From a virus: a stretch of 23,170 bases of DNA. Location: positions 1 through 23,170 of IMG/VR virus record IMGVR_UViG_3300043313_000563; one strand, 5' to 3'. The notes beneath the pieces were generated by a model. The model was not told the DNA's origin. It saw only the letters and a program-made list of their open reading frames with translations, and did no database searches. A program made the translations under genes and the position numbers. Below, piece after piece: positions 1-23,170 of the stretch. Numbering within the stretch: the first letter of the stretch is position 1; each line of letters begins with the position of its first letter.

Positions 1-424
1 CTGGCCCGGCGGGTGAGGCTGATAAAAAAACGGAGGATTCAATTCCGTTTATCTTTATCGGCGTCGGAATTTCTTTTTCATCGACATTAGCTAATCTCGC
101 TTTAAGCATTTGCCGGCCGAATTCCGCAATGTCTTGGCCTAATGCACCGCCAGCGCTTTGATTGCATGATGCATGACTAGGCCTAACGATATCGTCATTA
201 CCATTAGCCAAGGCGTGCGGAATACCAACGTGATCTAATTCCCAACGGTCATAGGGAGTAATGGTGAGCCCGCATCTTGGGCAGGGTTGCGGTAGCCGCA
301 TCTGCCACCGAGCACGGAGCCGTGACCATTGGCCAGACGATAGGCGGATGCCGCCAGCATGGCGTTTGTTGGCGGCCCGTTGGTGTGGTCTCTTGGTGGC
401 TATGGCTCGGCATCCTCCGCCCAT
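1..424 (-). CDS. HNH endonuclease, 3' end cut by window edge
   Basis: The reading frame is open from 424 down to base 1 and runs off the window, so only about 141 residues are visible. It carries a zinc-knuckle HNH core: C48-P-R-C51, then WELDHV with D64-H65, then H84-A-S-C87-N88. This is the layout of phage HNH proteins encoded next to terminase, where they nick DNA during packaging (family knowledge). The tail after residue 100 is more AT-rich and lacks recognisable motifs. The ATG at 424 has GGTGGA upstream; an in-frame GTG at 454 is an alternative start, and a stop lies just beyond it. The open frame in another phase over 249-485 lacks these motifs and is a shadow. Function confident, exact start uncertain. 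Confidence 0.85.
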   Translation of the reverse strand, partial: MGGGCRAIATKRPHQRAANKRHAGGIRLSSGQWSRLRARWQMRLPQPCPRCGLTITPYDRWELDHVGIPHALANGNDDIVRPSHASCNQSAGGALGQDIAEFGRQMLKARLANVDEKEIPTPIKINGIESSVFLSASPAGP

Positions 425-525
425 CTTGGCCGGTTGTCCACCGTGCCCACCCACAGGCCAGGCCGTAACTACTCACCGTTAGCACCGTTAATCAGATGGT
501 AGTTAGTTGGTAGTCCCTTTAGAGG

Positions 526-601
526 GGGTGCATATATGCACCCTAATCAAGCGTGGATCAGGGTGCATATGTGCATCCTCCCTAGGTGCATATGTGATCC
601 C
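526..601. promoter_or_regulatory. Three GGTGCATAT-type palindromic repeats (operators or iterons)
   Basis: Three 18-bp copies: 526-543 is a perfect palindrome (GGGTGCATATATGCACCC), 561-578 is a near copy, and 584-601 keeps the left half and degenerates on the right. They lie between the last early gene (ends 666) and the HNH/terminase late operon (starts 424), in a 241-bp non-coding interval. The motif was not found elsewhere in the window. Position and dyad symmetry fit binding sites for a dimeric regulator of the late operon, or origin iterons. Which one is inference. Confidence 0.6.
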
Positions 602-642
602 TAATCCACAGATGGGCCGAGGGTTATCCACAGTCTGTGGAT
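601..642. promoter_or_regulatory. DnaA-box-like sites with inverted repeat
   Basis: TTATCCACAG at 624-633 contains a perfect match to the bacterial DnaA box TTATCCACA. It overlaps an inverted repeat, ATCCACAG (626-633) against CTGTGGAT (635-642). A third half-site, AATCCACAG, lies at 603-611. These sit beside the palindromic repeats in the same non-coding interval, so the region is the best origin candidate in the window. The sites could equally be operators; only the motif matches are seen. Confidence 0.45.
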
Positions 643-665
643 GGGAAAGGCACCATAGGGAAGGC

Positions 666-989
666 CTAGAGCGTGAGCCTGTAAACCATGGGTGAGGCCC
701 GCCCGTTTAGGTGGCCTTCCGCTTTGATATAGCCCGCCTCGGTTAACTCCCTCATGGCCCGCTTAACGGCCGAGCGGGCGCCGGGCGTGGCCTCTCTCCC
801 GGCATAGCCGAGGCAGGCGGCTAGGTGATTCCACCCACGAAAGTAGATGTGGGCGGGCTGATTCTTGGTCTCTTGGTCTAGCGCGTTAAGCGCCAGCACC
901 CATAAGGCCTCACGCGCCACACGGCTTAGCCCGTTAAGGCTCCCGGCCATAGCCTTAGCCTCCACCGTACGGAGCAATTGTGTTCCCAC
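666..989 (-). CDS. Winged-helix DNA-binding protein, replication- or regulation-related
   Basis: 107 residues from a GTG start that lies 3 bases after the upstream stop. The pattern of helices (SRVAREALWVLALNALD, then a segment rich in small residues, then AVKRAMRELTEAGYIKAE and a beta-hairpin ending MVYRLTL) is that of small phage winged-helix proteins. The helix 'RAMRELTEAGYIK' resembles the end of wHTH domains in plasmid and phage replication initiators and MarR-like regulators. It is the last gene of the early operon and sits directly next to the palindromic repeats at 526-601, so it is a natural candidate to bind them. The DNA-binding call is moderately sure; the target is inferred. Confidence 0.6.
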   Translation of the reverse strand: MGTQLLRTVEAKAMAGSLNGLSRVAREALWVLALNALDQETKNQPAHIYFRGWNHLAACLGYAGREATPGARSAVKRAMRELTEAGYIKAEGHLNGRASPMVYRLTL

Positions 990-992
990 GGG

Positions 993-1768: not shown

Positions 1769-2246
1769 TCAAATCTCTCCAATCGTGCAAAGCGGATTGC
1801 GGCACCCAATGGGTAGCCGCTCGGTAATGGCGGCGCCTTATGGGAAATGTCTTGGCCTCGGCGGCCGTCATCCACCCGGCTATATGGAGCCCGTGTGGCG
1901 GTAAGCCGATGATGAGCACGCAAACCCAATGATCCGGCGTATCGGCGGGCACCAATAGGTGACCGCTTTTCCCTATGGTCGATTTACCCTCATAATCGGT
2001 GCCTTTGTGGCTCACATCTGGCCCACCGTGGCCGGTTATGGCTGGCCAAATTCTCGAGCCCAACGCCCGCGCTAGATAAACCTCACCGAAATAGGCCAGG
2101 ATATCGTTTGCTTGTTTCTGCTCATGGGTGCGGCGGTATTCGTTGCCATCGTGCCAGCCTTTATCTTTGGCGTAATGGCGCCGCTTATATCCGCCGATGG
2201 CGCACGTTAGCGATTCATCTAGGGTGAGCCGTACGTTAATCGTCAC
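1725..2246 (-). CDS. Putative PD-(D/E)XK nuclease-like protein
   Basis: About 173 residues from a GTG at 2246, which overlaps the RecT stop by 11 nt; an ATG at 2270 is an alternative. The open frame extends upstream to 2351 but that part overlaps RecT. The middle shows a nuclease-like layout: GEVYLARALG (Glu), GGPDV (Asp), then DYEGKST (E-x-K-like), followed by HGLHIAGWMTAAEAK, a GW(I/M)..A.EAK motif seen after the core in several phage nuclease-fold proteins. It sits between RecT and the resolvase-like gene. The nuclease assignment is by motif pattern only and could be wrong. Confidence 0.5.
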   Translation of the reverse strand: MTINVRLTLDESLTCAIGGYKRRHYAKDKGWHDGNEYRRTHEQKQANDILAYFGEVYLARALGSRIWPAITGHGGPDVSHKGTDYEGKSTIGKSGHLLVPADTPDHWVCVLIIGLPPHGLHIAGWMTAAEAKTFPIRRRHYRAATHWVPQSALHDWRDLNARTQDRDSQMLDL

Positions 2247-3342
2247 GCTCTGATTCCGGCCGTGTGTCATAAATCTTGAATCGGATATCGGGCATGGCTT
2301 CCTCATCTGCTTCGAATGTGAGCGTTCCGTTAGCGAAACGGCCGAGCACATCTAGCACCCTTAGGCCTTCCGCACGGGTCAATTCTTTAGAGGTAGCGAT
2401 ATCCCGGCCGAGGATGGCCGATAGGAGCGCGTGCCTTTCCTCGGCCGTGGCCACGGTGCCCAATTCCCGCGTCAGGCCCGCTTGCAAGGCCCGCATGGGC
2501 GCGGCGCCCAAGGGTGGCGGCCCGCTCCCGGCTGGCACTTCCGGGGGTGCCTCGGGAGCGGGCCTCTCCGGCTCCGGCGTGGGAGAGGGAGCCGGAGGCT
2601 CGGCCTCCGGGTGGAGAATATGCGGCGGAGGTAGCGGCACATCTACGTAGCGCGGCCTCTCCGGGCCTGTAGGCGGCTCGGCGGCCTCCGGTGCCACGGG
2701 AGCCGCGTCAGGCTCTCTAGCGGCCGCCCGTGGCTTCCTCTGTAGCGCCTTGCGTGGCTTGGGCTCCGGCGCCGCTTCCTCCGGCGCACCCCATACGGCC
2801 GCGTCAGGCTCGGCGCCATCCTCGGCCACATATCCAAGGCCTTTGATTACGTCAGGGAAGAGCATCCGAGCCAAATCACCCGTGGCGCGTGCCGTGAGCA
2901 TGGCGCGCGGGTATGTCTGCCAATTCTTGCGGCCCAAGAGGCCAGCGGCCCGCGCTTGGTCGATAGTCCATTCAATGTGTAGCCGCTCGGATTCCGGGCG
3001 GCCCGCACGGATGCCAGAGACCCGGCACCGCGTACCCGTGGCCTCATGCACGGAGAGGGAATGGCCTGCCTTATAGATAAGCGCCCGCATTAACTCCGCC
3101 GAGGGAGCCGGGCGGCCGTCCACAATATGCATGCCCTGTAAGGCTTGCATAGGCGTTACGCCAATCTCCAACCCATAAAGGATTAGCGCGGTGACGGCCT
3201 CCCGGCGCCCACGGAGCGGCGCGGGCACGAATTCGGTATCCGAGACCGCTAGCGAAACCTTATCGGCAAATACCAATGCGTCACCCCATGCACCAACGTC
3301 TAGCACGGGCGCGTTAGGTTCGATAACGGCCAATTCGCTCAC
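2236..3342 (-). CDS. recT: RecT-like single-strand annealing protein
   Basis: 368 residues. Residues about 30-190 match the RecT/Bet-type annealase layout: TALILYGLEIGVTPMQALQG, then MHIVDGRPAPSAELMRALIYKAGH, and NWQTYPRAMLTARATGDLARMLFPDVI. RecT proteins bind single-stranded DNA and drive strand annealing, usually paired with an exonuclease; the Cas4/RecB-like gene at 4065-4853 is the likely partner. Residues about 200-290 are a long Ala/Pro/Glu-rich low-complexity linker, followed by a small helical C-terminal domain, LTRELGTVATAEERHALL onward, unusual for RecT. The GTG start at 3342 overlaps the upstream stop (GTGA), so it is translationally coupled. Confidence 0.8.
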   Translation of the reverse strand: MSELAVIEPNAPVLDVGAWGDALVFADKVSLAVSDTEFVPAPLRGRREAVTALILYGLEIGVTPMQALQGMHIVDGRPAPSAELMRALIYKAGHSLSVHEATGTRCRVSGIRAGRPESERLHIEWTIDQARAAGLLGRKNWQTYPRAMLTARATGDLARMLFPDVIKGLGYVAEDGAEPDAAVWGAPEEAAPEPKPRKALQRKPRAAAREPDAAPVAPEAAEPPTGPERPRYVDVPLPPPHILHPEAEPPAPSPTPEPERPAPEAPPEVPAGSGPPPLGAAPMRALQAGLTRELGTVATAEERHALLSAILGRDIATSKELTRAEGLRVLDVLGRFANGTLTFEADEEAMPDIRFKIYDTRPESERDD

Positions 3343-3715: not shown

Positions 3716-4065
3716 TCGGCGGCCGCCGTATCCCTCGGATCAAACGGTGATTGGCTGACGGCCGCGCGGATATCCTCACGCGCGGCCGCCGCGTCATAGT
3801 CACCCGGCTCCGGCTCCGGCGTGCTGGCGGCGCCTAGGGAGGCGTCACAGTCAAAGAAAGCGCGCGGCCGCTCGGCCCATCCGCCGATATCAGCGCTCGG
3901 CGCCTCGGTCCATGAGGCGTGGCAGACACATACGGCGTTGCCTTCCTTGGTTGTGTATTCCTTATTTCCCTTGGCCGCGTATGCCTTGGCCTTGGCCTCC
4001 GTTTTATGGGTGCGCGCGTGGCCGCAATCCGCCACGGTGCATTGGGGCCATTGATATGCCTTCAC
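3712..4065 (-). CDS. Hypothetical protein with possible zinc knuckle
   Basis: 117 residues from a GTG in a TAGTG overlap with the nuclease gene. The N-terminal half has CTVADCGHARTHK, then VCVCHASW, four Cys plus His that could bind zinc. The C-terminal half is acidic and rich in Pro, Asp and Ala. It lies between the Cas4-like nuclease and RecT and is probably an accessory of that set. Function not recognised. Confidence 0.6.
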   Translation of the reverse strand: MKAYQWPQCTVADCGHARTHKTEAKAKAYAAKGNKEYTTKEGNAVCVCHASWTEAPSADIGGWAERPRAFFDCDASLGAASTPEPEPGDYDAAAAREDIRAAVSQSPFDPRDTAAAE

Positions 4066-4853
4066 TATGCAATCCTTTCCGGGAGAGGTAGAGCGGCCCC
4101 GATTAAATCCTCACGCCGGAGGCCCGCCCATTTGGCTACTTCGATAGCGTGCCGGAAGGCGCGCCACATCTCTTCATCAATCCGCACGGGCACTAATTCC
4201 CACCCATCCGGCCGCACCCATAGCGCGGCGCCGCGCGCAATTGGGCGCATCGTCATATCGCGGTCACCGATTTGCACATGCGTAGCGCGGCTATATGCGG
4301 TCAATTGCAAAGCCGTTTCCGGCCACACGCCGGAGGCGCCGGTTTTGTAATCAATCATCCAATATTCGTTACGGCGCATCATGGCGCACAAATCGAATTT
4401 GCCCGCGTAACGCAATTCCTCATGGAATACGGCACACTCCACCAAGGCAGTATCCGGGCCGATATCCCACGCATCCATAAAGCGCGCTACTTGCTCACCC
4501 ATCCGGATAACGTCATCCGGATAAGGCTCTTTAGTGTCCGGGTCATAACTCTCCACCGGCTCACCGAAAATAAGGCGCTCGGCTATGGAATGGACCAACG
4601 TGCCAGCGGCGGCCGAGGCGTCTCGCACGCGGTCACTAGCGGCCGAGGCCTCCCTAATCCATGAGGCCTCACCCATCACGGGCAGGCTCTCAACGTTGGC
4701 GGCCGCCCATAGCGCGGCCTCCCTAGCGGACCATTTGAGTAGGCCCGGCTTTCCGATGGCCTTCCCGATGATGCCCGTAACGCTCGGCACCCTTTCGCCA
4801 TCTAGCGAATAGGTGTGGAATCGGCCGGTGCCCACAACCAAGCGGGAGCCCAT
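4065..4853 (-). CDS. Cas4/RecB-type PD-(D/E)XK exonuclease
   Basis: 262 residues. Core motifs in order: AGTLVHSIAERL with H88 and E92, VECAVF (E139), YAGKFDLCAMM (D154), WMIDYKTG (D168 and K170), and ALQLTAY (Q183 onward). This is the H-x-D-(D/E)xK-QxxxY pattern of the RecB/Cas4 nuclease family. The Cys residues of Cas4 iron-sulphur clusters are not evident. In phages such genes pair with RecT to resect DNA ends for annealing, and the RecT-like gene is about 700 bp downstream. The start is set by a TGATG overlap with the upstream gene. Confidence 0.85.
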   Translation of the reverse strand: MGSRLVVGTGRFHTYSLDGERVPSVTGIIGKAIGKPGLLKWSAREAALWAAANVESLPVMGEASWIREASAASDRVRDASAAAGTLVHSIAERLIFGEPVESYDPDTKEPYPDDVIRMGEQVARFMDAWDIGPDTALVECAVFHEELRYAGKFDLCAMMRRNEYWMIDYKTGASGVWPETALQLTAYSRATHVQIGDRDMTMRPIARGAALWVRPDGWELVPVRIDEEMWRAFRHAIEVAKWAGLRREDLIGAALPLPERIA

Positions 4854-5438: not shown

Positions 5439-5783
5439 ATGCCTCGCAAGGAAGCGCCAGAATCGCTAGAGGCCTTTGTGGATGGCCTGTCTGACCGCGT
5501 GCTCACATGCCGGGAGTTGGGTCACCATTGGCGCCCGCTCACGGTCACTTGGGAGCGGGAGGCGCGCGCCTACCATCGTCAGATGCGGTGCCCATCGTGC
5601 CGCACCGTGCGTACGCAAATCCTCACGGAGCACGGGCACGTCATCTCCAACGGCTACCGCTATCCGGATGGCTACCTAGCCGGAAATTTGACCGAGCGCG
5701 TCAGCCGTGACGCCTTCCGCATGGCGGCCGTTCAACGCTTCCTAGCGGCGGCCGATTCTTCCAAAAGAGTGACGGCCGCGTGA
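5439..5783 (+). CDS. Small phage zinc-binding protein
   Basis: 114 residues with a strong ribosome site (GGAGGAAAGGA) 6 bases before the ATG. It carries LTCRELGHHW, then QMRCPSCRTVR, then GYRYPDGYLAG. This Cys-His and C-x2-C pattern followed by a Tyr-rich YRYPxGYL segment is recurrent in uncharacterised actinophage and actinobacterial mobile-element proteins. It is one of the few rightward genes and its stop overlaps the next gene, so the two are coupled. Biochemical role unknown; nucleic-acid binding is plausible. Confidence 0.75.
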   Translation: MPRKEAPESLEAFVDGLSDRVLTCRELGHHWRPLTVTWEREARAYHRQMRCPSCRTVRTQILTEHGHVISNGYRYPDGYLAGNLTERVSRDAFRMAAVQRFLAAADSSKRVTAA

Positions 5784-6313
5784 TGGCCCAAATCATCTCG
5801 GTTGTCTGTGATGTGCCTGACGCGCCGGAGCATCCGGGAGAGCCGTTCCGGGTGTCCGTAGGCGCGCCGGGCCAGCCGGGGCCGGTGCTCATAGTCGATT
5901 TGTGCTCGGAGCACGCCTCTCCGCTCTTGGCCGTATGGGAGGCCATCTCGGAGTTAGGCAGGCCGGAGAATGGGAACGGCGCCGGGCCTCGGAAGGCGCC
6001 CGCCGCTCCCGGCTCGGAGCGCGTGGCGTGCCCGGTGTGCGGCAAGCCGCTTAAGAATCGCGGGAGCATGGGCGCCCATCTCCGAGGCCAGCACGGCGTA
6101 ACCATCTCGGAGGTAGAGAGCGGTAAGAGCAACGCGGTTACGTGCCCGGTGTGCGGCCGCTCTATCGGCTCTCCGCAAGGCCTCGGCCGTCACACCAAAA
6201 CGGCTCACTCCATGACGGTGCCAGAGGCACGCGCGGCGGCCGCGCGGGCGGATGCGCCACCGGCTCCGCGCAAGGCCCGCAAACGGGCCTCTGTGGCCTC
6301 TGGCGAGGCATGA
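5783..6313 (+). CDS. Double C2H2-type zinc-finger protein with Lsr2-like N-terminus
   Basis: 176 residues from the ATG at 5783; a GTG at 5780 overlapping the upstream stop is equally possible. Residues 1-60 (FRVSVGAPGQ, then VLIVDLCSEHASPLL) resemble the short beta-rich dimer region of Lsr2-type proteins. Two zinc fingers follow: C83-x2-C86...H99-x4-H104 and C121-x2-C124...H137-x4-H142, separated by about 17 residues. The tail is basic and Ala-rich. Likely a DNA-binding regulator or nucleoid-like silencer. It is the best candidate for a lysogeny regulator because no classical repressor is visible. Its last 109 bp overlap a convergent minus-strand gene. Confidence 0.7.
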   Translation: MAQIISVVCDVPDAPEHPGEPFRVSVGAPGQPGPVLIVDLCSEHASPLLAVWEAISELGRPENGNGAGPRKAPAAPGSERVACPVCGKPLKNRGSMGAHLRGQHGVTISEVESGKSNAVTCPVCGRSIGSPQGLGRHTKTAHSMTVPEARAAAARADAPPAPRKARKRASVASGEA

Positions 6314-6689: not shown

Positions 6690-8165
6690 CTATCGCCAGA
6701 CAATCACCAAATCCCGCGCCGGATCAAATGGCCGGTTACTCCGGCCGGAGCCACGGAGCACGACAGAGGCTAGGTGATCGATAACCGCGCGCCGCGTGTG
6801 AAGGCTGGCGGCCTCCCACGCCTCGGCCGCACCGGCTCCGGTCATTCCCTTTAGCACGCGCTCCGGGCGCCGCTCCGCCTCGGCCGCCAGCGCCAGCGCC
6901 GCGCGGGCCTTGGCCTCGGCCCGGCCGATGGCGGCTAGGCGCCGTTGGTAATCGGCCTCATCCGTCACGGAGCCATCCGCCCACGCATCCTCTAGCGCCT
7001 CCCTACGGCCGCCAATGGCGTCTAGCGTGGCTTGGGCCTCCCGCGTGGCGTCTAGTGCCGCCGTGTCTGTGAAAGCGCCGGAGGCGTCGATTTGGGAGAG
7101 CCGCCCAACCATGAGCGCGGTAATGGCCTCATCCACGGGCGCTAGCGCGCGTTGGACGTGCCGCCCGGTGGAGCACTTATAAGAGGCAGGGTTACCGCGC
7201 TTGGTCACGGGCACGCCACGGAGCGGAGCACCGCACCCGGCGCACATGCCGAGGCCAGCCAAGAGATAAACGCGGGCGCTAGTGAAACTCTTACGGCGCC
7301 CGCTCTCGGCCAATTTGGCCTTAATGGCCTCATGGGTTTCCACGGAGATAATGGCGGGCCAATCACCCGGCCCAACGTCTACGCCTTGGTGAATACGGCG
7401 CGCGGCCAGATGAGGCCCGGCCAGGAATTTACCCATATTCGGCCCGGCCCATTGGCCACCGCCCGGCGTAGCGATTCCCTCATCACGGAGCCATTTAGCG
7501 AGAGAGTAAAGGGTTTCACCCGTGAGGAAGCGGTCAGCCAACTCCCGGATAATGCGCGCCTCTTGCTTGTTAATCTTGCGCATTCCCTTTTTGTAACCGA
7601 AACGCCTCCGGCCGCCGTGCGGCATTCCCGCTTTAGCCGCGTCAGCCTTAGACGCCAATTGCCTCATGCTCATCTTGGCCGCCTCATATTCGGCTTGGCT
7701 CCCATCGTCACGCGCCCGCTTAACGTCATCCGGATTCCATGGGTCGATCCGTGAGCCGGTGGCGGTTTGGTAGATAACGGCGCCGCCTTCCCGGCACGCC
7801 TTTAGCAATAGGGAAACGTCATCCGCCTGACGTAAAGAGCGGTCTAGGAGCATGACATAAACGTGAGTGAATTGGCCGGAAGCAACCGCCTCTAGGAAGG
7901 CGGGCCAATTGGTGCGCTCTTTAGCCGCAAACTCCGAGGCGCTTTCTCCCTCATCCGTGAAATGGGTAACCGGCCCGGCGCCGTGCTCGGCGCTCATAGC
8001 CTCGGCATCATTGGCCTGACGTTTAACGCCACGGGTCACGCCATAACCGGCTTTCTCTCCCTTGGTAATGGAGAGTTTCGAGACGCGGTTATAGGCCACG
8101 GCGGCAAACGGCCGCGCCGCTCCCGATTGGGAACGGCGCGGCCGGTTAAGGGTTGCGGTGCTCAT
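6690..8165 (-). CDS. int: Large serine recombinase (integrase)
   Basis: 491 residues, normal for the family. The resolvase domain starts VAYNRVS with the nucleophile S29, and has MLLDRSLRQADD in place of the more usual DRLSR-type loop. The recombinase domain runs from about residue 190 (GGRRRFGYKKG) through NKQEARIIRELADRFL and a TPGGGQW segment. A zinc ribbon follows: MCAGCGAPL and SYKCSTGRHVQ. A predicted coiled coil spans about 380-450 and precedes the C-terminal basic end. It catalyses attP x attB integration. The start overlaps the upstream gene by ATGA; the stop is followed by the terminator at 6628-6661. It makes the phage temperate. Confidence 0.95.
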   Translation of the reverse strand: MSTATLNRPRRSQSGAARPFAAVAYNRVSKLSITKGEKAGYGVTRGVKRQANDAEAMSAEHGAGPVTHFTDEGESASEFAAKERTNWPAFLEAVASGQFTHVYVMLLDRSLRQADDVSLLLKACREGGAVIYQTATGSRIDPWNPDDVKRARDDGSQAEYEAAKMSMRQLASKADAAKAGMPHGGRRRFGYKKGMRKINKQEARIIRELADRFLTGETLYSLAKWLRDEGIATPGGGQWAGPNMGKFLAGPHLAARRIHQGVDVGPGDWPAIISVETHEAIKAKLAESGRRKSFTSARVYLLAGLGMCAGCGAPLRGVPVTKRGNPASYKCSTGRHVQRALAPVDEAITALMVGRLSQIDASGAFTDTAALDATREAQATLDAIGGRREALEDAWADGSVTDEADYQRRLAAIGRAEAKARAALALAAEAERRPERVLKGMTGAGAAEAWEAASLHTRRAVIDHLASVVLRGSGRSNRPFDPARDLVIVWR

Positions 8166-8855: not shown

Positions 8856-8915
8856 GGTGGCTGATCCCTCGGCCTCGGTGCCTCCCTTGGTGGGCGGCGC
8901 GTAGCGCCAGCCTAA

Positions 8916-12010: not shown

Positions 12011-12763
12011 CTATCCCCAAACCGTGTTTGGAGTAAAGAGGGTGCCTATTGGTGTGGCTGGCCAGGCGCCGGAGGCCTTTGGCCCAAACATTTTCCCGCT
12101 GGCGATATCTAGATAAACGGCGCCATCCGTGCCGGTGCCCGCCGTGGGCGCTCCGGAGCCGCTAAGAAACGTGCCAGCACCGCTTACGCCTTGCGGGCCT
12201 TGGATGCCTTGCGGGCCTTGGGCTCCGGTGGCTCCCGTATCTCCCTTAACGCCTTGGGCTCCCGTGTTTCCGGTCAGGCCTATCGGGCCTTGCGGGCCGG
12301 TTGGGCCGGTTAGGCCTATCGGGCCTTGGGCACCCGTAGCGCCAGCCGCGCCAGCCGCTCCCGTGTCTCCCTTGGGGCCTTGGGCACCCGTGGCGCCGGG
12401 CGTGCCCGGATCACCCTTGGCGCCGGTTGCTCCGGGCGTGCCGGGTATGCCTTGGGCTCCGGTTAGGCCCGTGTCGCCTTTAAGGCCTTGCGGGCCGGTT
12501 GGGCCAGCCGGGCCGGTGGCTCCGGGCGCTCCCGTAGGCCCGGCCGCTCCCGTGGCGCCAGCGGCGCCCGTGTCGCCTTTAACGCCTTGGGCGCCCGTGT
12601 CTCCCTTAACGCCTTGCGGGCCGGGCGCTCCGGCCGCTCCGGGCGTGCCAGCGGCTCCGGGTGGGCCGGTGGCGCCAGCCGGGCCGGGTGGGCCTGACGG
12701 GCCAACGGCGCCCGTGTCTCCCTCGGTCTCGCGCGGCCTCGGCTTGGGCAGAGAAAGCGGCAT
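12011..12763 (-). CDS. Collagen-like tail fibre protein
   Basis: 250 residues from the ATG in a TAATG overlap. Residues 1-14 are a short basic/Pro head. Residues 15-194 are about 60 uninterrupted Gly-X-Y triplets, rich in GDT, GAT, GPQ and GVKGDT, which should form a collagen-type trimer. Residues 195-250 ([19 protein letters not shown], then [11 protein letters not shown]) match the trimer-nucleating/end domain common on phage collagen-like tails. The corresponding DNA is a repetitive GC-rich tract. Likely a flexible, tail-attached fibre stem. Confidence 0.85.
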
Positions 12764-14058
12764 TAGATAACCGCCTGATCCCATTGGAGCACGGGTGAAA
12801 TGGTGTCCCAACGGTCGGAAGCGGGAACGTCATTCCACCGGCCGAGGCTCGGCGGCGGGCCAAAGCACGCGGCCTGATTCCAATTACCCGGAGCCTGATC
12901 CCAAAGCACCGTGGGCGCTACGTCATCCCATCGTGGCGGCGGGCTAGTACGGCAGTAATCGCTAACCGTTAATTCGATTTCATGGACACCCCACGCTAGG
13001 CGCTCCGTCCACCCTTCCACCCATGCGGCTATGGCGTTAGGCGTTGGGCCGGTGCTAGGAAGGCCCGTTACCCGCAAGAGCCCGTGCATATCCAAGGCCA
13101 AAAGCGCTTGGCTATCGGCCAGGCTCATGCCGCCCACATCGATAGGGAGCGCGGCCAGCATCCACACCGGATAAGAGTTTTGGGCCAGGATCAGATAGGC
13201 GGTCTCTTGGGCATCCTCTAGCGTGGCCAATTCGGTAGTGACCGAATACTCATAAATGCCAAACCGGGTGACGCTATCCGGCGCCTCGGCGTAAAGGCTC
13301 GGCCGCTCCGTGCTCTCTCCCTCGGCCGGTGCCTCCGGCTTGACTCCATAAACCATGGAAATCTGATTAACCAAACCGGAGATATTGCGCACCCATGAGG
13401 GAGTGACCAAGATATCGCACGCATCTAATTCCATATCGACGGGCGCATTCCGCCGATGCTCGGCATCCGCGTAACGGATATCTCCGGCCCGTGTCTCCCA
13501 AATGAGGCCGCCCGCGCTATTGGCCGTGTCCGTGGCTACCTCTAGCGCGGCCCGCCTATCGATATCACGCGGCACGATTTCCACCGTGCCCGGATCAGAA
13601 TGGGCCGGGTCTAGCGTGAGGCCCGCTAAGGCGAATACGCGCGCCACGCGGGCGCCGTCCAACTCTTGCGGGAATGGCTCATCCCCAATTACCCGGCGTG
13701 TGTAATCGGCCAGCGTGCTCACGGCCACAATCTGACCGATACCCGCGTCAGGCGTATTAGGCCCGGCGTCATCCCACCCAATAGACAAATCTGTGACCCG
13801 GCCCGTAAAGCGGCGGTAAGCGGTGCCGCCTAGGTGGGTGTCAATAATGATCCAAGCGCCGATATCCACCATGGCTGGCATGGGCGCGCCCGGCCCCACG
13901 GTTACGTCTAGCGTTACGGAGGAAGGCTCCGGCTGATTAGCCGTGTCCGTGCGGCCGTGAGAGATGGCCACGGAGTCACATAAGCAAGAGATATCTACGG
14001 GCGTGCCCGTGGGCGTTTCCCTATCCTCATAGGCCAAAACCGTATGGGCGCCAATCAT
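12763..14058 (-). CDS. Minor tail protein (baseplate hub-like)
   Basis: 431 residues, coupled to the tape measure stop by ATGA. It is the size and position of actinophage minor tail proteins. The N-terminus has [17 protein letters not shown], close to TATPIDISCLVNNAVIS in the major tail protein, suggesting a shared tube-like domain. A Trp-rich C-terminal segment (about 370-430) repeats [28 protein letters not shown] and [10 protein letters not shown]. Probably forms the tail tip below the tape measure. Confidence 0.8.
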
Positions 14059-16658
14059 CCGGCCAACCCCATCCGCCTATCGTGCCCGGCCAGAATGCGC
14101 CTAATCTGGCGCGCCGTGGCCTCCGGATCAATGGCGCCGTTAACGATGATGGTAGGCCCGGTGCTCACGGCTCGGCCGCTGGCCATAGCGCGCGGATTGG
14201 CTACCGCTGGCGCCGCCGTGGCTCCCGTTGGGAAAGCCAAAAGACTTCCGCCATCGTCTCCGCCTCCGCCTCCGCCTCCGCCTCCGGTGGCTCCCTTAAT
14301 CGCCTTTTTAATGGCCTTTTTAAGAGCCTTGGCCAGATTCTTTGCCAGCGTCTCGGCCCATTCATCTAGGTTTTCCTGCTTAATCTCTAGGCCATCCACG
14401 ATGGCTTGGGCGCCTTGCTCTCCGGCCGCATAAAGCGCCGTGGCGGTATTGGTGCCCAAGGCGGCCGCCGAGGCCTCTAGCGCCGTCTGTAGCGCGTTAG
14501 CCTCGGTAATGGCGGCCGTGCCTCCATCGGCCAGGCCTTGCGCGATAGCCGTGCCGCCTTCCACGCCAGCGGCCGCAATATCCCGGAGCGCGCCTTGCGA
14601 AAGGCCAGCGCCCGCCAATTGCTCCATGAGCGCTTGGAAATGTTGCGTGGCCTCTACCCGCTTCCGCATATCGGCCAGAATGCCCGTGGCGGTTGTGTCT
14701 TCCTTATCGGCCAGATTGGTAATGGCACCAAAGGCGGCCGCCGCATTGGTAATACCCTCGGCATAGGCCTTGCGCTCATCTTGGATGGCGGTTAGCGCCT
14801 CCCGCGCGTCAGCCAAATCCTTATAGACCTTTTGCCTCTTCCGGGCATTCTTTTCTAGCGCCTCGGTCTCATCCGAGGCGGCCTTAATCACGGCTTGGCT
14901 GGCCGTGCGCGCTTTCTTATCGCTCTTGAATTTCTTTTCCATGGTGGCCGATACGGTTTCGGCCACGGCCTCCGAGATGGCCTTAATTCCGGCTAGGCCA
15001 TCTTCCATTCCCTTTGATAGACCGCCCATAACGTCTTTACCAATGGCGGCCATAACCTTAGATGGCGAGGAAATACCGAGGCGCTTTTTAACCCAACCGG
15101 GAATCTTATCGGCCAGCGCTTGCACTTCACCGGCAATAGCGCCCGCCATAGACTTAATGCCGTTAATGAGGCCGCGGATGATATCGGCGCCCACATTGAA
15201 TAGCCAAGATGAGGCGTTACCGATAAGGCCTTGGATTTTGGTGCCGAGGGAACGGAATACCGCCCAAACCTCATCAATCTTGGAGCGGATGCCGGATAGC
15301 ACATTAGAGACAATGGCGGTCAGGCCATCGATAATGGCGCCAACGTTCCTAACCGCGTTATCCCACCGGGTCTCTAGGAAATCGGTTATGTCCGTGATAA
15401 AGCCACGGATAGCGCCCACGGCGGTATCCCACGCATCCGAGACCTTTTTAATCACGCTCTTTACGGCCGCAACCGTATTACTCCATGCGGTCTCTATCCA
15501 CCCGGTTACGGCCGACACGGCCGAGCGGATGGCGCTAACGGCGGAATCCCAAGCGTTAGGCACGAATTTAATAACGGCCTTAACCGCGTTAACGGCGCCT
15601 TCCCACACGGTCACTAGGAAACGCGCCACGGCGCCGATTACCGTTTTAATGCCAGCAAAGGCCGCGTCTACTCCGGCCCGGAACCAACCTACTTTGTTAT
15701 AAAGCAATACAAAGATGGCGATAACGGCCACGATGGCCACAACCCAAATAAGGAAGGCGGCCGAGAGGGTAACGCCGAGCGCGGCCGTAATGGTCAGCGC
15801 CACATTCATAACCACGATAACGGCGGCCAGCGCCGCAATTAGCCCGATAATGATTTGGGTTGTGGTTGTGTGCTTTTCCATAAAGCCGAATAGGTCACCT
15901 AGCGCGGCCGTCACTACCGTGAGCACGGGTAAGAGCACGGCGCCTAGGGAGGCTTGCATATTCTCCATTTGGGCGGCCGTGCGTTGGCTCTGCCCGGCCG
16001 CCGTATCGGCTTCCCGTGCAAAGGCGCCGTGAGCATCGGCGGTTTGCTCCGTGACCAAGGCCAAGAGCGCGGCGGTTTTGGCTTGCTTGGCCGCCTTTCC
16101 CTCTAGTTTATCGGTGCCATCGGCGGCCATCCGGGCCGCAATATCGGCTTGCTTGACCGCTACGCCGTACTTTTCGATTGGGTCCGTTTCGCCACGGAGC
16201 GCGCTAGATAGTGCCTCCACCGCCTCTTTAGCGGAGCCGCCGAATTGGGCCGACAAATCAGCGCCGGTGGAAATGAGACCCTTGGTTTGCTTGGCTACCT
16301 CTTTCATGGGCAGGCCAGAGTTTTTCAATTGGGCGCCTAGGACGGTGGCCAATTCCTCATATTCGGATGAGGCCAGGCCCACGCTATCGGCCGAGGATTT
16401 GGCCCATTTATGAACGGCATCCGCGCTCTTGCCAAATACGGCATCCACGCCTCCCATGGCTTGCTGCGCACGGGAGGCGGCATCCACGGAGGCGGCACCA
16501 AAGGCCGCAATAGCGGCCGTGGCGGCGGCGGCCGGGAGCGCCGCTTTACCGAGGCCTTTTCGCATCTTGCCAGCGGAGTCATCCACGCCTTTAAGGCCAG
16601 CGGCGGCGGCGGCCGTATCCGCTATTACCTTAATCCGTAGGACGGCTTCACTTGCCAC
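14055..16658 (-). CDS. Tape measure protein
   Basis: 867 residues, by far the longest gene, directly after the chaperone. GTG start inside the preceding frame. N-terminal domain (about 1-220) is the helical phage minor-tail/TMP domain (AFGAASVDAASRAQQAMGGV and DAVFGKSADAVHKW). About 225-310 has strong hydrophobic helices (VVTAALGDLFGFM, IIIGLIAALAAVIVVMNVA). A middle region repeats WDSAVSAIRS / WSNTVAAVKS / WDTAVGAIRG modules, about 35 residues each, then GISSPSKVMAAIG. A poly-Gly stretch lies near residue 795. It sets tail length and passes DNA or pore functions at entry. At roughly 1.5 Å per residue a tail near 130 nm is expected. Confidence 0.95.
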   Translation of the reverse strand: MASEAVLRIKVIADTAAAAAGLKGVDDSAGKMRKGLGKAALPAAAATAAIAAFGAASVDAASRAQQAMGGVDAVFGKSADAVHKWAKSSADSVGLASSEYEELATVLGAQLKNSGLPMKEVAKQTKGLISTGADLSAQFGGSAKEAVEALSSALRGETDPIEKYGVAVKQADIAARMAADGTDKLEGKAAKQAKTAALLALVTEQTADAHGAFAREADTAAGQSQRTAAQMENMQASLGAVLLPVLTVVTAALGDLFGFMEKHTTTTQIIIGLIAALAAVIVVMNVALTITAALGVTLSAAFLIWVVAIVAVIAIFVLLYNKVGWFRAGVDAAFAGIKTVIGAVARFLVTVWEGAVNAVKAVIKFVPNAWDSAVSAIRSAVSAVTGWIETAWSNTVAAVKSVIKKVSDAWDTAVGAIRGFITDITDFLETRWDNAVRNVGAIIDGLTAIVSNVLSGIRSKIDEVWAVFRSLGTKIQGLIGNASSWLFNVGADIIRGLINGIKSMAGAIAGEVQALADKIPGWVKKRLGISSPSKVMAAIGKDVMGGLSKGMEDGLAGIKAISEAVAETVSATMEKKFKSDKKARTASQAVIKAASDETEALEKNARKRQKVYKDLADAREALTAIQDERKAYAEGITNAAAAFGAITNLADKEDTTATGILADMRKRVEATQHFQALMEQLAGAGLSQGALRDIAAAGVEGGTAIAQGLADGGTAAITEANALQTALEASAAALGTNTATALYAAGEQGAQAIVDGLEIKQENLDEWAETLAKNLAKALKKAIKKAIKGATGGGGGGGGGDDGGSLLAFPTGATAAPAVANPRAMASGRAVSTGPTIIVNGAIDPEATARQIRRILAGHDRRMGLAG
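14258..14286 (-). repeat. Hexanucleotide repeat in the tape measure gene
   Basis: CTCCGC repeats four times plus a partial copy. It codes for nine glycines near the TMP C-terminus. Gain or loss of a unit would keep the frame and only change the linker length. Confidence 0.6.
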
Positions 16659-17108: not shown

Positions 17109-17473
17109 TAGATCCCTTTCACCTTGGATAGTGCCTTTTCCATATCCGCCATAAAGGCGGCCTCTATGAGCGGTTGGCTATTGGCCAGCGCGGGCCTTAG
17201 GAATGGTTGGGCCGGGATATTGTTCCCGCCTCCGTACTCCGTGACGGCCGCGTATGGGAGCGCCGAGGAAACGGATACCTCCGAGGCCGCCGAGGATGCC
17301 CGTAGAGAGCCCGCCAGCGCGCCCGTGGCCACGGGTGCCAACCCACGGCCACGGGCCTCTAGGAGCCGCCCGGAGGCCTCTAGAGCGGCCTTGGGCTCGG
17401 CTACGTCTCCCGCCGCGCTGGCCAGCGTCATCCGGAGCCGCGTCAGGCCATCAATCTCCACCGCATCGGCCAC
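17108..17473 (-). CDS. HK97-gp10-like tail/neck protein
   Basis: 121 residues from a GTG in a TAGTG overlap with the tube gene. Family signatures are EIDGLTRLRMTL, GLAPVATGALAGSLRAS and YAAVTEYGGG, then PAQPFLRPALANS. The 'P..TG.L..S....YA...E.G.....PFL.PA' pattern matches the HK97 gp10/tail-terminator family. Sits between tail tube and chaperone genes, later than in lambda-like phages. Confidence 0.75.
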   Translation of the reverse strand: MADAVEIDGLTRLRMTLASAAGDVAEPKAALEASGRLLEARGRGLAPVATGALAGSLRASSAASEVSVSSALPYAAVTEYGGGNNIPAQPFLRPALANSQPLIEAAFMADMEKALSKVKGI

Positions 17474-17970
17474 TAGGACGCCACCGGCTCCCGCTCCCGG
17501 CGCTTGCCGTTCCCGGCGCTGGCCTCATCAGCCATCACGCCTCCATAGGCATAAACCGGCGCCTCTACTAGCGCAAATTCGAAATCGCTAGTCATGGTTT
17601 CTCCGGTTGTGTCGCCACCGAAATCCAACGGGTCGATAACCAATTTGCCGGTGGCGGTAGTGCCCGCCTCCGTGCTCGGCTCAAATACGTAATCCAATTG
17701 CGTACCCTTAGCCGATTGGGAGAGCGCAAAGAAACCGGCCGATTCCGCAATATCGGTATCGACATTTCCGGAGAGGGTATAGGTATAGGTCACCGAGCCG
17801 GGCCGCACGGTGCCGCACAACTTAGTAGTGCTATCTCCCTGCTCCTTATCGGCGCTGATAACCGCGTTATTGACCAAGCAAGAGATATCAATGGGCGTGG
17901 CCGTCTGGCCAATGGTCAGGGTGCCGGGGCCGAGATTCCAAACGGGAGGCTCCGGAGACGCTACTGCCAT
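17473..17970 (-). CDS. Major tail (tube) protein
   Basis: 165 residues with AAAGGAA ribosome site. Beta-rich: GTLTIGQTATPIDISCL, TKLCGTVRPGSVTYTYTL, SQSAKGTQLDYVFEP, DPLDFGGDTTGETMTSDFEF. Small tube proteins of this layout lie upstream of the chaperone genes in siphoviruses. The C-terminal 20 residues are basic and Ala/Gly-rich and probably exposed. It shares its DISCL motif with the minor tail protein. Confidence 0.8.
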   Translation of the reverse strand: MAVASPEPPVWNLGPGTLTIGQTATPIDISCLVNNAVISADKEQGDSTTKLCGTVRPGSVTYTYTLSGNVDTDIAESAGFFALSQSAKGTQLDYVFEPSTEAGTTATGKLVIDPLDFGGDTTGETMTSDFEFALVEAPVYAYGGVMADEASAGNGKRREREPVAS

Positions 17971-17983
17971 GATTCTTTTCCTT

Positions 17984-18373: not shown

Positions 18374-18684
18374 GCCAGCACCATTTTCCGCAAGCCGCGC
18401 TCATGCTCTTCCACTAGCGCGTCATAAAAGGGAATGCGGGCCGGGCCATATTCGGAGGTATCAATGCCCACCATTCCGAGCGGGAGGTTTTTAGAGGCAA
18501 CCTCTTTTTGCACCCGGCGTAATAGGCCTTGGTCAGCGGCGGCCGTTTCCTCTGGCGTGGCAGGCGGCCGAATACGGAAAGCCTGATCCACGGCGCACGC
18601 CATTAGCATCCGGTCTAAATCGGCATCGGGAAGAGCCGTGGCCGGAATGGCCAGATAGGCGCGCGCCGTGGCTAGGTCGATCAC
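18370..18684 (-). CDS. Head-tail connector protein (gp6-like)
   Basis: 104 residues, TAGTG-coupled to the capsid gene. It starts MIDLATARAYLAIPATALPD and continues DADLDRMLMACAVDQAFRIR, the helical pattern of HK97 gp6/adaptor proteins that bind beneath the portal. The later QGLLRRVQKEVASKNLPLG is helical too. Confidence 0.7.
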   Translation of the reverse strand: MIDLATARAYLAIPATALPDADLDRMLMACAVDQAFRIRPPATPEETAAADQGLLRRVQKEVASKNLPLGMVGIDTSEYGPARIPFYDALVEEHERGLRKMVLA

Positions 18685-19934
18685 TAGGACGCCTTACGCC
18701 CGTTCCCGTTCCCGTTCCCGTTTCCGGAGCGGGAGAGCGGAAGCGGAGGCACGCCGGTCACCTTGGTAAAGGCACCGGGGAGCACATTAACGAATGCGCC
18801 ATAACCGGCATAGCCGACCAATTGGCCGAGCACATCAGGCTCTTGCACTTGCATAAGCCCATCCACATCTTCATACCATTCCGCCGCCTTGCTCGGCCCA
18901 ACTACGGCCGTGCCGGAGGCCAAATGGCCATCCACAACCAAGCGGAGCCCAAGAGGCGCGCCAGCGGTAGACGTAAGGCTAAGGCTCGGATATGCGGCGG
19001 CGCCGTTATCGCCAACCGTCATAGTGCCGAGCGTTCCCCAAATATCGGGACTAACCCACATGGTGTCAGGAATGGTCTCACCTTGGGTGAGGCTATCGGC
19101 CACAATCCCGTAAAGCGCGGCATTGATTCCGGCCGGGTCAGCCGTGGCCAGCGCGACCGATTGGGTAACGCTAGTGAGGAATTGGGCGCACGCATCGGCG
19201 CATGTGCGCTGCGCATAGATAACCGCGAAATCATCAAATACGATTTGGAGAATTCCGGGACTAGTCCACTTAATATCCTGACGGCTGATATTAAGGTGAC
19301 CGGCATAGGTGGCGGCCGTAACCGGCATGAGGCCGATAAGCATCTTTTGGCTAGCCGTTAGATCCTTTTCCGCCGCCTGCTTTTGCACGTCTACGTGTTG
19401 CGTAACGTGCGGCCTGTCAAACTTTCCGGCCGGGAGCGCCTTCCGGCTAATCGAATTGATAAACGGGCGTGACCCGTCAATATCGTTGAGCACCGGGCCG
19501 AGCACGGGCCTAGGGATAATGCCCGGATTGTCGGCCGTAGTCTGATGAGCGGTTGCGCGTTCAATCTTTTCCGCCGCCTCCGGATCACGGAGCACCATGG
19601 CCCGGTGAAGCGTAATGGCGTAATCGGCGGCCGTAGGGAATTCCCGCACAATGTCATATTCATCGGCGGCCGGAGCGGATGCCGTCTTAGTCACGGCCGG
19701 AGCGCTCGGCACCCGGCTACGCAAATCGGCAATCTTTGCCGTCTGTGACTCTAGGCCGGAATAATGTTCAATGGCCTTTTCCAAATCGTTAATCCGCGCC
19801 TTATCGCGGTCGATCTGCTTTTCCTCGCCATCCGAGATATCACGGTTTTCCTCGGCCGCGCGGTTAAGCACCGCGTCTACGCCTTCCCGCAATTCATCAA
19901 ATTCCCGGTTAAGCCTGTCAAGATAAGCGCCCAT
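18684..19934 (-). CDS. HK97-type major capsid protein
   Basis: 416 residues, ribosome site GGAAGG. Residues 1-70 are a coiled-coil delta domain (EFDELREGVDAVLNRAAEE, KARINDLEKAIEHY) that acts as internal scaffold and is normally removed by the protease. The rest follows the HK97 capsid fold: PVLGPVLNDIDGSRPFINSI, DLTASQKMLIGLMPVTAATY, GHLNISRQDIKW, FDDFAVIYAQ, MWVSPDIWGTLG. The C-terminus ends in a GN repeat. The cleavage site is probably in the Ala/Pro/Ser-rich stretch around 75-95. The protease gene lies immediately upstream across the 14-bp repeats. Confidence 0.9.
   Translation of the reverse strand: MGAYLDRLNREFDELREGVDAVLNRAAEENRDISDGEEKQIDRDKARINDLEKAIEHYSGLESQTAKIADLRSRVPSAPAVTKTASAPAADEYDIVREFPTAADYAITLHRAMVLRDPEAAEKIERATAHQTTADNPGIIPRPVLGPVLNDIDGSRPFINSISRKALPAGKFDRPHVTQHVDVQKQAAEKDLTASQKMLIGLMPVTAATYAGHLNISRQDIKWTSPGILQIVFDDFAVIYAQRTCADACAQFLTSVTQSVALATADPAGINAALYGIVADSLTQGETIPDTMWVSPDIWGTLGTMTVGDNGAAAYPSLSLTSTAGAPLGLRLVVDGHLASGTAVVGPSKAAEWYEDVDGLMQVQEPDVLGQLVGYAGYGAFVNVLPGAFTKVTGVPPLPLSRSGNGNGNGNGRKAS
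18699..18722 (-). repeat. Hexanucleotide repeat at the capsid 3' end
   Basis: CCCGTT repeats four times without error, encoding the Gly-Asn run before the C-terminal RKAS. Unit changes would keep the frame. Confidence 0.6.
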
Positions 19935-19975
19935 TACGGGTGCCGCCTTCCAAATGAGTAGTTGTCATCATCTGG

Positions 19976-20050
19976 CCGGGTGGCGGCTCATAAGGCCGGG
20001 TGGCGGCTCTACCGTGGCCGGGTGGCGGCTCTTAGACCGGGTGGCGGCTC
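19976..20050. repeat. Four 14-bp direct repeats between protease and capsid genes
   Basis: CCGGGTGGCGGCTC occurs exactly at 19976-19989, 19996-20009, 20018-20031 and 20037-20050, with periods 20, 22 and 19. The 133-bp interval (19935-20067) is the only long gap in the otherwise packed late module. In the leftward sense each reads GAGCCGCCACCCGG; the copy nearest the capsid is preceded by AT and forms an ATG with a 7-codon frame, MSRHPAR, then TGATGA. Confidence 0.75.
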
Positions 20051-20067
20051 TTGGTTATCCGGGCACG

Positions 20068-20646
20068 TTACGCGCGCTTAGGGAGCCTGTCTAGCCATTC
20101 CCTATGGGCATCTCGCCTAGGCGTGGCAGATGGCGCCACGGTCAGCGTGTGATCCCGTGCCACCAATACGCCAGCGCCCGCGTATTGGGGCCTCATGGTG
20201 GCCGCTACGTGAGAGAGCCCGCACGCCTCCCGATAAACCACACGCTCACCGATAGCGGTAGCGATAGACGTAGAGCGATAAACGCGCGTGCTCACGCTCC
20301 ATCCGGTCAACTCTCCCGCGCGGGCCGCCTCGGCCTCCGGGTGGGAGCGGTCTAGCCGGAATGATGCGAATAGGCCCGCCTCGGCTTCCCGGAGGCCAAT
20401 GCACCGGCCCAAGAATCGGTCTCCCTCATCCCCAAAATGGCCCACCATGAGATTTACCCACCGGCCGCCTTTCTGGCAATCACGGGTAAAGGCGCCGTGT
20501 TGGAAGGCCTCTAGATATGTCGTGGCGCCTCCGTCGTCTGATACCTCTTGCGGCACGCCATAAGGCACCGCTAGCCCGTCTACCGTCCAACCGTCTCCGG
20601 TGGGCTCTAGCGGGCCGGTGGCGCGGTTAATAAGCAATTCGCTCAT
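20068..20646 (-). CDS. HK97-type prohead maturation protease
   Basis: 192 residues, coupled to the portal gene by ATGA. Family motifs: WTVDGLAVPYG, FQHGAFTRD, VNLMVGHFGDEGDRFLG with the likely catalytic His, and GELTGWSVSTRV with the likely catalytic Ser. Herpesvirus-like serine protease fold; it cuts the capsid delta domain and itself during prohead maturation. The C-terminal 40 residues are basic. Confidence 0.85.
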   Translation of the reverse strand: MSELLINRATGPLEPTGDGWTVDGLAVPYGVPQEVSDDGGATTYLEAFQHGAFTRDCQKGGRWVNLMVGHFGDEGDRFLGRCIGLREAEAGLFASFRLDRSHPEAEAARAGELTGWSVSTRVYRSTSIATAIGERVVYREACGLSHVAATMRPQYAGAGVLVARDHTLTVAPSATPRRDAHREWLDRLPKRA

Positions 20647-21866
20647 GACGTAACCTCATTAGGTGTCAACTCCGGCACACCGGCCGGAGTCTCATTCTCG
20701 GTAATGGATTCCTCCAACGGCGCCCGGCCGATAACCGCGCGGGCCTCATCCTTGGTCAGAATCCCGGCCGTGAGCATGGATGCCAAAACCTCCGCCGTAG
20801 TCTTTTGGTCGGCACGCATCCGGCCCGCGTAATCCCATTGAACCTTTGTCCCGCGCGGCATGAGCCATTTGGTGAAGGCGGCCGATAGCGGCTCGGAGTA
20901 GCGCATAACGCTATCCCGCACGAATTCAATATCCGCCGTTTCGATATTCTGATAAGTCATGCTCGGCCCGGCTAGGCCTAGTTTATAGTTGGGAATGCCA
21001 AGCATCATGGCCACGGCGGCCGCATTCCATTGGCGGCTCTCCACCAATTGCGCCTTATCGGCATCCGAGACAATAGGTGTCAGCACATAACCGTTAGGCA
21101 TGACAACCGGCTCACGGGTATTAGTGAGCGCGCGCCATTTGGCCTTTAACTCTTCCGCTTGATCTTGCGTTAGATCAATGGGCGCTTGCAATACGGCGGG
21201 CGGGAGCGTGCCTCCCGCGAAGTATTGGCCCGCGTGCGTCTCGGCCGCCACGGCGCCGCCGAGCCATTCCCCATATTGGGCTAGGACGCCTCGGCCGAAT
21301 ACCTCACCGGAGCGATTACCCGCGCTCACATGCAAGAGGCTATCCGCGTCTAGCATCTGGCCGCCCACGGTCAATTGATAGCGGCCCGTCTCCGGATCGA
21401 TAATCAGCCATACGTCATCAGCCGGGAGCGGGATAAGCCAACCGGGCCGGAGCGTGCGGAAATCCAAATCCCCAAATAGCGCGAAATGGTTACCGTATAA
21501 AATCAAATCCTCTACGGCGGCCCATTTGTAATTCCACGGCGGCACCGTTGGGTCAGGGTCCGTGAGCACGCTCGGCTGATCCGCCAGCCGCACGGCCACG
21601 CCCAATTCCTCATCCCACCGTTGGGCGCGCCAATCGGTCTCCGCCACGGTGCCCGCCAGCAACGCCACGCCACGGCCAAACGGCGGGAGGCCCATGGCGG
21701 AGGCCTCGGAGGCCCATAGCGGCTCTAGCGGGTACGGCGTGCCTAGGAGTGCCGCCCAATCGCTCAACGGCCCCACACGGGCATTCTGGCGCGGGTAGCG
21801 GCCGGGTAGGCGCCGAGCCGTGGCCGCCGAGCGCCGGTCACGGGCCAGCCGAGCGGGAGCGGCCAT
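20643..21866 (-). CDS. Portal protein
   Basis: 407 residues, ribosome site AAGGA nine bases before the ATG. Portal signatures: DPTVPPWNYKWAAVEDLILY then GNHFALFGD, LLHVSAGNRSGEVFGRGVLA, TQDQAEELKAKWRALTN, ASMLTAGILTKDEARAVIG. Forms the dodecameric ring through which terminase pumps DNA and to which the connector binds. The N-terminal 25 residues are strongly basic. It follows terminase by 10 nt. Confidence 0.9.
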   Translation of the reverse strand: MAAPARLARDRRSAATARRLPGRYPRQNARVGPLSDWAALLGTPYPLEPLWASEASAMGLPPFGRGVALLAGTVAETDWRAQRWDEELGVAVRLADQPSVLTDPDPTVPPWNYKWAAVEDLILYGNHFALFGDLDFRTLRPGWLIPLPADDVWLIIDPETGRYQLTVGGQMLDADSLLHVSAGNRSGEVFGRGVLAQYGEWLGGAVAAETHAGQYFAGGTLPPAVLQAPIDLTQDQAEELKAKWRALTNTREPVVMPNGYVLTPIVSDADKAQLVESRQWNAAAVAMMLGIPNYKLGLAGPSMTYQNIETADIEFVRDSVMRYSEPLSAAFTKWLMPRGTKVQWDYAGRMRADQKTTAEVLASMLTAGILTKDEARAVIGRAPLEESITENETPAGVPELTPNEVTS

Positions 21867-21876
21867 AGCGAAATCC

Positions 21877-23170
21877 TTAATAGACGTAGAAATCTAGCGG
21901 CTTTTCGGAAGGCGTGGCCGCATCCGCCAGCGCCCACGCGGCCGCATGGAGCAAATCGGCCCGGATGCCTTTATGCGCTTGGGTCAGGCCACCGGAGGCG
22001 GTTGGCGATAGCGCTACGGCCGTGGCTTGCTTGGTCAAATCCTCATCACCGGAATGTGCCACGCGCCCGGCTCTCACTAGGGAGCGGAAGAGCGGGAAAG
22101 CGGAAGCATTGATATCGGGCGTGACCCGTTGGATATCGGCACGCGGGCACCAAGCCTTAGCCTCGGTGACCGGGAGCGTGCGGCCAAGAGTCATCCGGCA
22201 ATTGGGCCGCTGGCCAATGGTGAAAGAGGCCCACGCAAACGCATCCGGCACGCTATCGAATGACCCACCCCAAATGAGCACCCGGCCATCCGGGAGATGG
22301 CACGCGGCCGCGCCCGCCGCCTTTAGGCCAAGGAAATCCGACACGGCCACCGAGAGCGGCACGCCATCGGGAGGCGCCGCGTAAAGGTCACCAAGCCGCG
22401 CCCAATGGTCAGGATCAGTCAAAGGCTCGGTGGCCGTGTTATCCACAATCGCACGCGGCCGCCAGACGTTGAGATATTGGCTCTTAAAGCCTTCCACCGG
22501 GTCATCTTCCAACGGGTCATCCGAGCGGCCATAAGCGCGCTTGGCCTTGGTGCTGATGAGCCTTTCCCGGCCCGGCGTCCAATGCGGGCTAGCCGCCTTC
22601 CATGCGGCCGGGTCATCAATATCCGCGTCTCGCATAGCGGACCATTCAAGCAAGAGGCTTCCGGAAGGCGCTTCCCAATCCGCCAGCACGGCGGCCCGCC
22701 GTACGGGCACCAAAGGCGAGGCGTAACGGTGCGCCGTCGAGAATAAAACCAATTGGCCATATTCCTGCTCCGCTAGCGTTGGTTCAATTCCCTCTTCCAC
22801 AATACGCGGCTCTACCGCCCAAGCCTCATCAATCAATGCCAGCGTGGATGCATAACCGTAGGTGGCGCTCTTAGCGCGGATCAGCCATCTATCGCCACCC
22901 GGCGCCATGATTTCCTCATGGCCGTTTTGCTCACGGGCGCTCCACCCATTCTCACGCGCCCATTGGCGGGCCGGGCGTTGAATCTCCCGCGCAATATCCA
23001 AACCCTTAGCCGTGTGCAAAACCAATTGCTCACAATTGCCATAAAGGGAACGGGCCTCCGGCGTGATCCGCCATAAAGCCAACTCCCGGAGCGCCACCGA
23101 TTTACCAACCTGCCTAGCCGTCGATAAAAGCGCCTCTATCCACACCATATGGCCGTCAGAGTCATGCTCT
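21877..23170 (-). CDS. Terminase large subunit, 5' end cut by window edge
   Basis: The frame is open through base 23170, so the true N-terminus is missing. From the first internal Met (23148): Walker A is STARQVGKS (residues 9-17), Walker B is LALIDEAW (D107-E108), and the coupling motif is LVLFSTAHR. The nuclease half has SVAVSDFLGLKAAG with its metal Asp and DLLHAAAWALADAA near the end. Packages DNA into proheads using ATP and cuts concatemers. About 60-100 N-terminal residues would be expected before Walker A and lie outside the window. The small subunit is not seen. Confidence 0.95.
   Translation of the reverse strand, partial: EHDSDGHMVWIEALLSTARQVGKSVALRELALWRITPEARSLYGNCEQLVLHTAKGLDIAREIQRPARQWARENGWSAREQNGHEEIMAPGGDRWLIRAKSATYGYASTLALIDEAWAVEPRIVEEGIEPTLAEQEYGQLVLFSTAHRYASPLVPVRRAAVLADWEAPSGSLLLEWSAMRDADIDDPAAWKAASPHWTPGRERLISTKAKRAYGRSDDPLEDDPVEGFKSQYLNVWRPRAIVDNTATEPLTDPDHWARLGDLYAAPPDGVPLSVAVSDFLGLKAAGAAACHLPDGRVLIWGGSFDSVPDAFAWASFTIGQRPNCRMTLGRTLPVTEAKAWCPRADIQRVTPDINASAFPLFRSLVRAGRVAHSGDEDLTKQATAVALSPTASGGLTQAHKGIRADLLHAAAWALADAATPSEKPLDFYVY

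Follow-up and report, generated by a model that had tools for sequence, protein, structure and literature searches.

The stretch of DNA analysed here (the window) comprises 23,170 bases of IMG/VR virus record IMGVR_UViG_3300043313_000563 and comes from a small soil phage; no near match at the DNA level was found among phage records. At the left edge lies an HNH endonuclease frame (phrog_338, E 3e-4), which covers positions 89–92 and runs off the sequence. The genes on the minus strand include those for a RecT-like annealing protein (2236–3342; phrog_4171, E 2.5e-40), a PD-(D/E)XK exonuclease (4065–4853; PF12705 and phrog_298), a large serine integrase (6690–8165; PF00239 with PF07508, and phrog_95 at E 4.5e-59), a tape measure protein (14055–16658; phrog_58, E 1.1e-53), a major tail protein (17473–17970; phrog_4574), a major capsid protein (18684–19934; tblastn match to the major head protein of Mycobacterium phage MooMoo), a portal protein (20643–21866; phrog_12, E 7.6e-47) and a terminase large subunit (21877–23148; phrog_9, E 1e-13), the start of which is cut by the right edge and which has a homologue in the closest relative, L005. 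The capsid gene is the basis of the family tree used below; the RecT-like, exonuclease, integrase, tape measure, tail and portal genes are all free of the tetranucleotide AGCT. Adjoining the tail genes, the minus strand at 12011–12811 encodes a collagen-like Gly-X-Y repeat protein with many internal direct repeats, a possible tail fibre, and a gene on the plus strand (5780–6313), opposite to most other genes, has C2H2-type zinc-finger matches. A nested inverted repeat built on GGGTGCATAT, with 29-base arms, occupies 520–584 in the interval between the HNH gene and the gene that follows and may be an operator or a terminator; at 19973–20053, in the spacer that separates the capsid gene from its upstream neighbour, a 20-base unit beginning TGGCCGGGTGGCGGCTC is repeated four times in tandem.

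The large serine integrase gene indicates that the phage is probably temperate. The closest matches of its capsid, integrase and tape measure proteins are mostly in actinophages, and from these we infer an actinophage with an actinobacterial host. The HNH and terminase genes of L005 are about 300 bases apart, and the window therefore appears to be a nearly whole genome of roughly 23.4 kb, opened between these two genes. Many of the relatives are contigs of 21–23 kb, and this points to an uncultivated family of temperate actinophages whose genomes are unusually small.

The window has a single AGCT, at 89–92 in the context TAGCTA. Both the count and the phrog_338 match bear out the original prediction, made from the letters alone, which had placed a single copy at this position in the left-edge HNH gene. 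When all 256 tetranucleotides are compared with a maximal-order Markov expectation from trinucleotide counts, AGCT lies far from it (1 versus 57.5) and has the lowest observed/expected ratio of all (0.017); base composition gives an expectation of 80.8, in line with the earlier estimate of about 80. As had also been foreseen, the absence spans all modules: the AGCT-free stretch runs from 93 to 23170 (23,078 bases), and of the 2.5-kb slices, in each of which about 5–7 copies are expected, all except the first have none. The other 4-base palindromes do occur, as had been stated, but some are lowered as well (GATC 42 versus 101 expected, GTAC 12 versus 26, TATA 19 versus 53). Equal depletion in unrelated phages would have spoken against the original prediction; in eight unrelated actinophage segments, each of window length, AGCT is near or above first-order expectation, and actinophages in general thus do not share the depletion.

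As the sole cause one might consider base composition, codon usage or codon-pair bias, and the codon usage is indeed odd for a GC-rich actinophage, CTG making up 11% of leucine codons and CAA 73% of glutamine codons. We therefore permuted synonymous codons in 29 genes, picked by eye from the open reading frames, such that the proteins and the overall codon usage were kept. While the real genes contain no AGCT, 200 such shuffles restore it to a mean of 49.2 copies (minimum 36). Split by reading frame, the count is zero in each of the three against 13.7, 18.1 and 17.4 expected, and it is zero also in the 2.9 kb of non-coding DNA, where base composition predicts 9.7. The purged asymmetric words that we tested (see below) are likewise almost absent, whichever frame or orientation is counted and outside the genes as well, and the real genes have 29 eliminated words as opposed to none in each of 15 synonymous shuffles. 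Since AGCT is missing from all frames and from non-coding DNA, unlike in the shuffles, the pressure is on the DNA and not on translation: the depletion is a DNA-level effect that depends neither on frame or strand nor on whether the DNA is coding. Codon bias as its cause is refuted by the shuffles, in AGCT counts and eliminated-word counts alike, and it is extremely improbable that codon usage, codon-pair bias or base composition on their own produced the loss. The original prediction of selection on the DNA rather than codon bias thus holds, but not its limitation to one site, as about 37 words have been purged.

We defined a purged word as a word of 4–6 bases whose count does not exceed 10% of what several Markov models predict, with an expected count of at least 8, and retained minimal words only. 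The window has 37 such words, AGCT included. Five are palindromes: AGCT, GCCGGC (1 versus 36 expected), CCGCGG (1 versus 32), CCCGGG and GGGCCC (0). The other 32 are asymmetric, for example CCCAG, CTCAG, ACGAG, AGAAG, AGGGC and GCAGC. Some shorter words survive under strict flank rules: CCAG has 122 copies after G and a single one in any other context, and CTGA has 79 copies before C or T and none before A or G. GATC, of which 42 copies are left, was rejected as a simply purged site, 29 of these being in GGATCA/TGATCC at 29 places from 555 to 23064 and other contexts being nearly empty; the 29 copies of GGATCA were in turn rejected as a dispersed functional motif, as their flanks share no common sequence.

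The odds of elimination are higher for palindromic 6-mers than for other words in the window (odds ratio 10), and across the family the same comparison with other 5–6-mers gives an odds ratio of 15 (p 3e-58). Palindromes are strongly over-represented among the losses, which matches the prediction of restriction avoidance. The losses of the window are also enriched for asymmetric enzyme sites from a fixed, hand-compiled catalogue list (5 of 24 versus 6.1%; odds ratio 4, p 0.016), as are those of the family (p 0.04) and of the control phages (p 0.0008). The majority of the window's purged words are, all the same, asymmetric and absent from that catalogue. Each control phage has only 0–4 asymmetric purged words by comparison with the window's 32. 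By the same test, Streptomyces phage Amela (L100) has 14 purged words and Mycobacterium phage Kumao (L102) has 10; unlike in the window, palindromes make up 10 of the 14 and 9 of the 10, respectively, and AGCT is normal in both. The purged words of Amela (positions 1–23170), a cultivated phage for whose host a genome is available, include CTAG, CACGAG and CTCTTC.

Terminase, portal and capsid, used as queries against viral contigs, gave about 90 related loci, and the word tests were applied to those that were long enough. In these relatives AGCT is bimodal: 13 have eliminated it, 28 have normal counts and 1 is intermediate. GCCGGC (23/16/0), CCGCGG (21/27/1) and GGCGCC (13/26/0) behave likewise, and 21 contigs of at least 5.5 kb have no AGCT at all. 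A capsid tree of 88 rows requires no fewer than 16 changes of the AGCT state; as it is a quick single-gene tree, recombination may inflate this number. AGCT-free and AGCT-bearing relatives can share a metagenome, as do, for example, L062 and L059, both from 3300015371. On/off switching of this sort among near relatives is in keeping with a restriction system of the host that would read AGCT. One 12-kb relative (L081) has no GATC (31 expected), no GAGC/GCTC (38 expected) and no AGCT.

Aligned comparison of sister phages follows the loss site by site. Conserved AGCT sites number 0 of 51 in L031/L030 (78% identity; 20 expected), 0 of 28 in L068/L064 (80%; 14 expected) and 0 of 25 in L059/L053 (72%; 8 expected). 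Of the 51 copies lost in L031/L030, 36 are accounted for by a one-base difference and 26 align with AACT or AGTT; these two replacements are mostly in the frame in which they are silent transitions, where frames were assigned by greedily choosing long open frames. GCCGGC is conserved at 0 of 68 sites between L005 and the window (15 expected), and from the window to L005 the asymmetric word CCGAG is conserved at 0 of 65 (p 6e-7). CCCAG, AGGGC and CGCAG point in the same direction (p about 0.004 to 0.01), several further asymmetric words have too few aligned sites for this comparison, and CACCGC and CAGCC, variable across the family, showed no loss in the pair tested.

Searches on the host side found no prophage relatives in a species-genome collection, either by terminase or by capsid profile. 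In the window, a regular-expression search gave no match to methylase motifs, the scanned proteins contained no methylase families, and the nine proteins scanned with PADLOC gave no match; protection by a phage-encoded methylase calls for a methylase gene in the window, and none was detected there. Methylase motifs are nearly absent across the family, with scattered matches only, the clearest being NPPW, typical of amino-methylases, in a frame of the nearest relative L005. Methylase carriage as the reason why some relatives keep AGCT accordingly finds little support, as L005, the relative with the clearest match, is itself AGCT-poor.

We consider it likely, with good confidence, that AGCT and about 36 other words were removed by selection at the DNA level, with restriction in the hosts as the most likely agent. 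Restriction avoidance is supported by the combination of the shuffles, the bimodality, the loss of aligned sites, the preference for palindromes and the normal counts in control phages, and from these we infer that restriction is the agent and that a host enzyme reading AGCT exists. AGCT is the recognition word of AluI, an enzyme originally discovered in the actinobacterium Arthrobacter luteus; an AluI-type restriction-modification system would thus match the window both in its word and in an actinobacterial source, the latter as for the host that the phage probably has. GCCGGC (NaeI), CCGCGG (SacII), GGCGCC (NarI) and GTCGAC (SalI) likewise belong to the classical specificities of actinomycetes. 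An AluI-like host system would read AGCT and other restriction-type defences the remaining purged words, each of them cutting incoming phage DNA that bears its word. A phage in which no methylase is detected and which has only about 23 kb to clean could escape if it sheds the sites, for the most part by changes of one base. Several points count against the restriction reading: the searches yielded neither a host nor an AGCT-specific enzyme; most of the window's purged words lack symmetry and match no catalogued enzyme site, whereas the avoidance surveyed in PMC6286503 concerns almost only orthodox Type II systems, with fewer sites eliminated in temperate phages; and, of the asymmetric words compared in pairs, two were not lost and several had too few sites.

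The loss could also come about through mutation and not through cutting: a host methylase acting in the lysogenic state would place 5-methylcytosine at AGCT, and deamination would turn the word into AGTT or AACT. The replacements in L031/L030 are what such decay predicts, and relatives free of AGCT have slightly more AGTT (1.20 versus 0.89, p 0.09). However, the excess of AACT and AGTT is concentrated where these changes are silent transitions, the two words are depleted in the window itself (30 versus 62 expected), GCCGGC was lost mainly through changes other than C to T, and words without a methylated cytosine, across dozens of motifs, are left unaccounted for. Decay of methylated cytosine at AGCT is therefore a possible contributor that we do not favour, and as the explanation of the depletion we regard it as improbable. 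Slightly less probable again is that the phage simply drifted to match the word usage of its host, in whose genome these words would be missing for some other reason. Sister phages within one metagenome differ completely in AGCT, the counts fall to zero and are not merely lowered, and there is a strong preference for palindromes; moreover, were drift the route, restriction would still be the likely cause within the host.

Host restriction thus remains our preferred reading of the loss of AGCT, and it is compatible with a division of labour in which an ordinary Type II system purged AGCT and a separate agent (BREX-like, Type III or another sequence-reading defence) purged the asymmetric words; the likelihoods that we attach to the two are not mutually exclusive. 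Such a second agent is a minority possibility, to be held tentatively. The asymmetric share, far above that of the control phages, speaks for it, as do the sharp flank rules, such as that of CCAG, and the fact that most of the asymmetric words match no catalogued enzyme site. Conversely, asymmetric words switch on and off just as palindromes do, CCGAG between the window and L005 being an example, and the asymmetric losses show an enrichment of catalogued Type IIS sites. The asymmetric words are best described as candidate targets of Type IIS, IIG, III, BREX-like or other systems.

It is conceivable, although we would not put it above a tentative suggestion, that the hosts of this family use many defences that read asymmetric words of 5–6 bases, and that temperate phages purge dozens of these words at once and with fast turnover. 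If so, the list of purged words would record, in readable form, a type of host immunity whose targets are considered to be seldom avoided. As a word can be gained or lost from one close relative to the next, lists of absent words might reveal the restriction repertoire of uncultivated hosts, and the identity of the host could perhaps be read from a phage's list, too.

The loss of restriction sites by phages is textbook knowledge. We found no reports of AGCT avoidance in phages in a limited literature search. The elimination of Type II sites in prokaryotic viruses was surveyed by Rusinov et al. 2018 (PMC6286503), who report it mostly for the sites of orthodox Type II systems, find complete elimination to be less frequent in temperate phages and describe avoidance of Type I, IIG and III sites as absent or very rare. 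The window resembles the avoidance documented there in the near-total loss of palindromic Type II sites, in having no detected methylase and in selection at the DNA level, and differs from it in that 32 of its 37 purged words are asymmetric and in that it carries an integrase. Small, broad-host-range plasmids, according to Shaw et al. 2023 (PMC10359461), avoid restriction-modification targets by tuning their sequence composition; in that account they are like the window, a small mobile genome that tunes its sequence instead of carrying protective genes, but the targets treated there are 6-bp palindromes, whereas whole sets of asymmetric words are near zero in our phage. The mechanism, then, is a known one; the breadth of the loss, about 37 words, and its asymmetric share are not typical and, in an integrase-bearing genome, go beyond the survey in PMC6286503.
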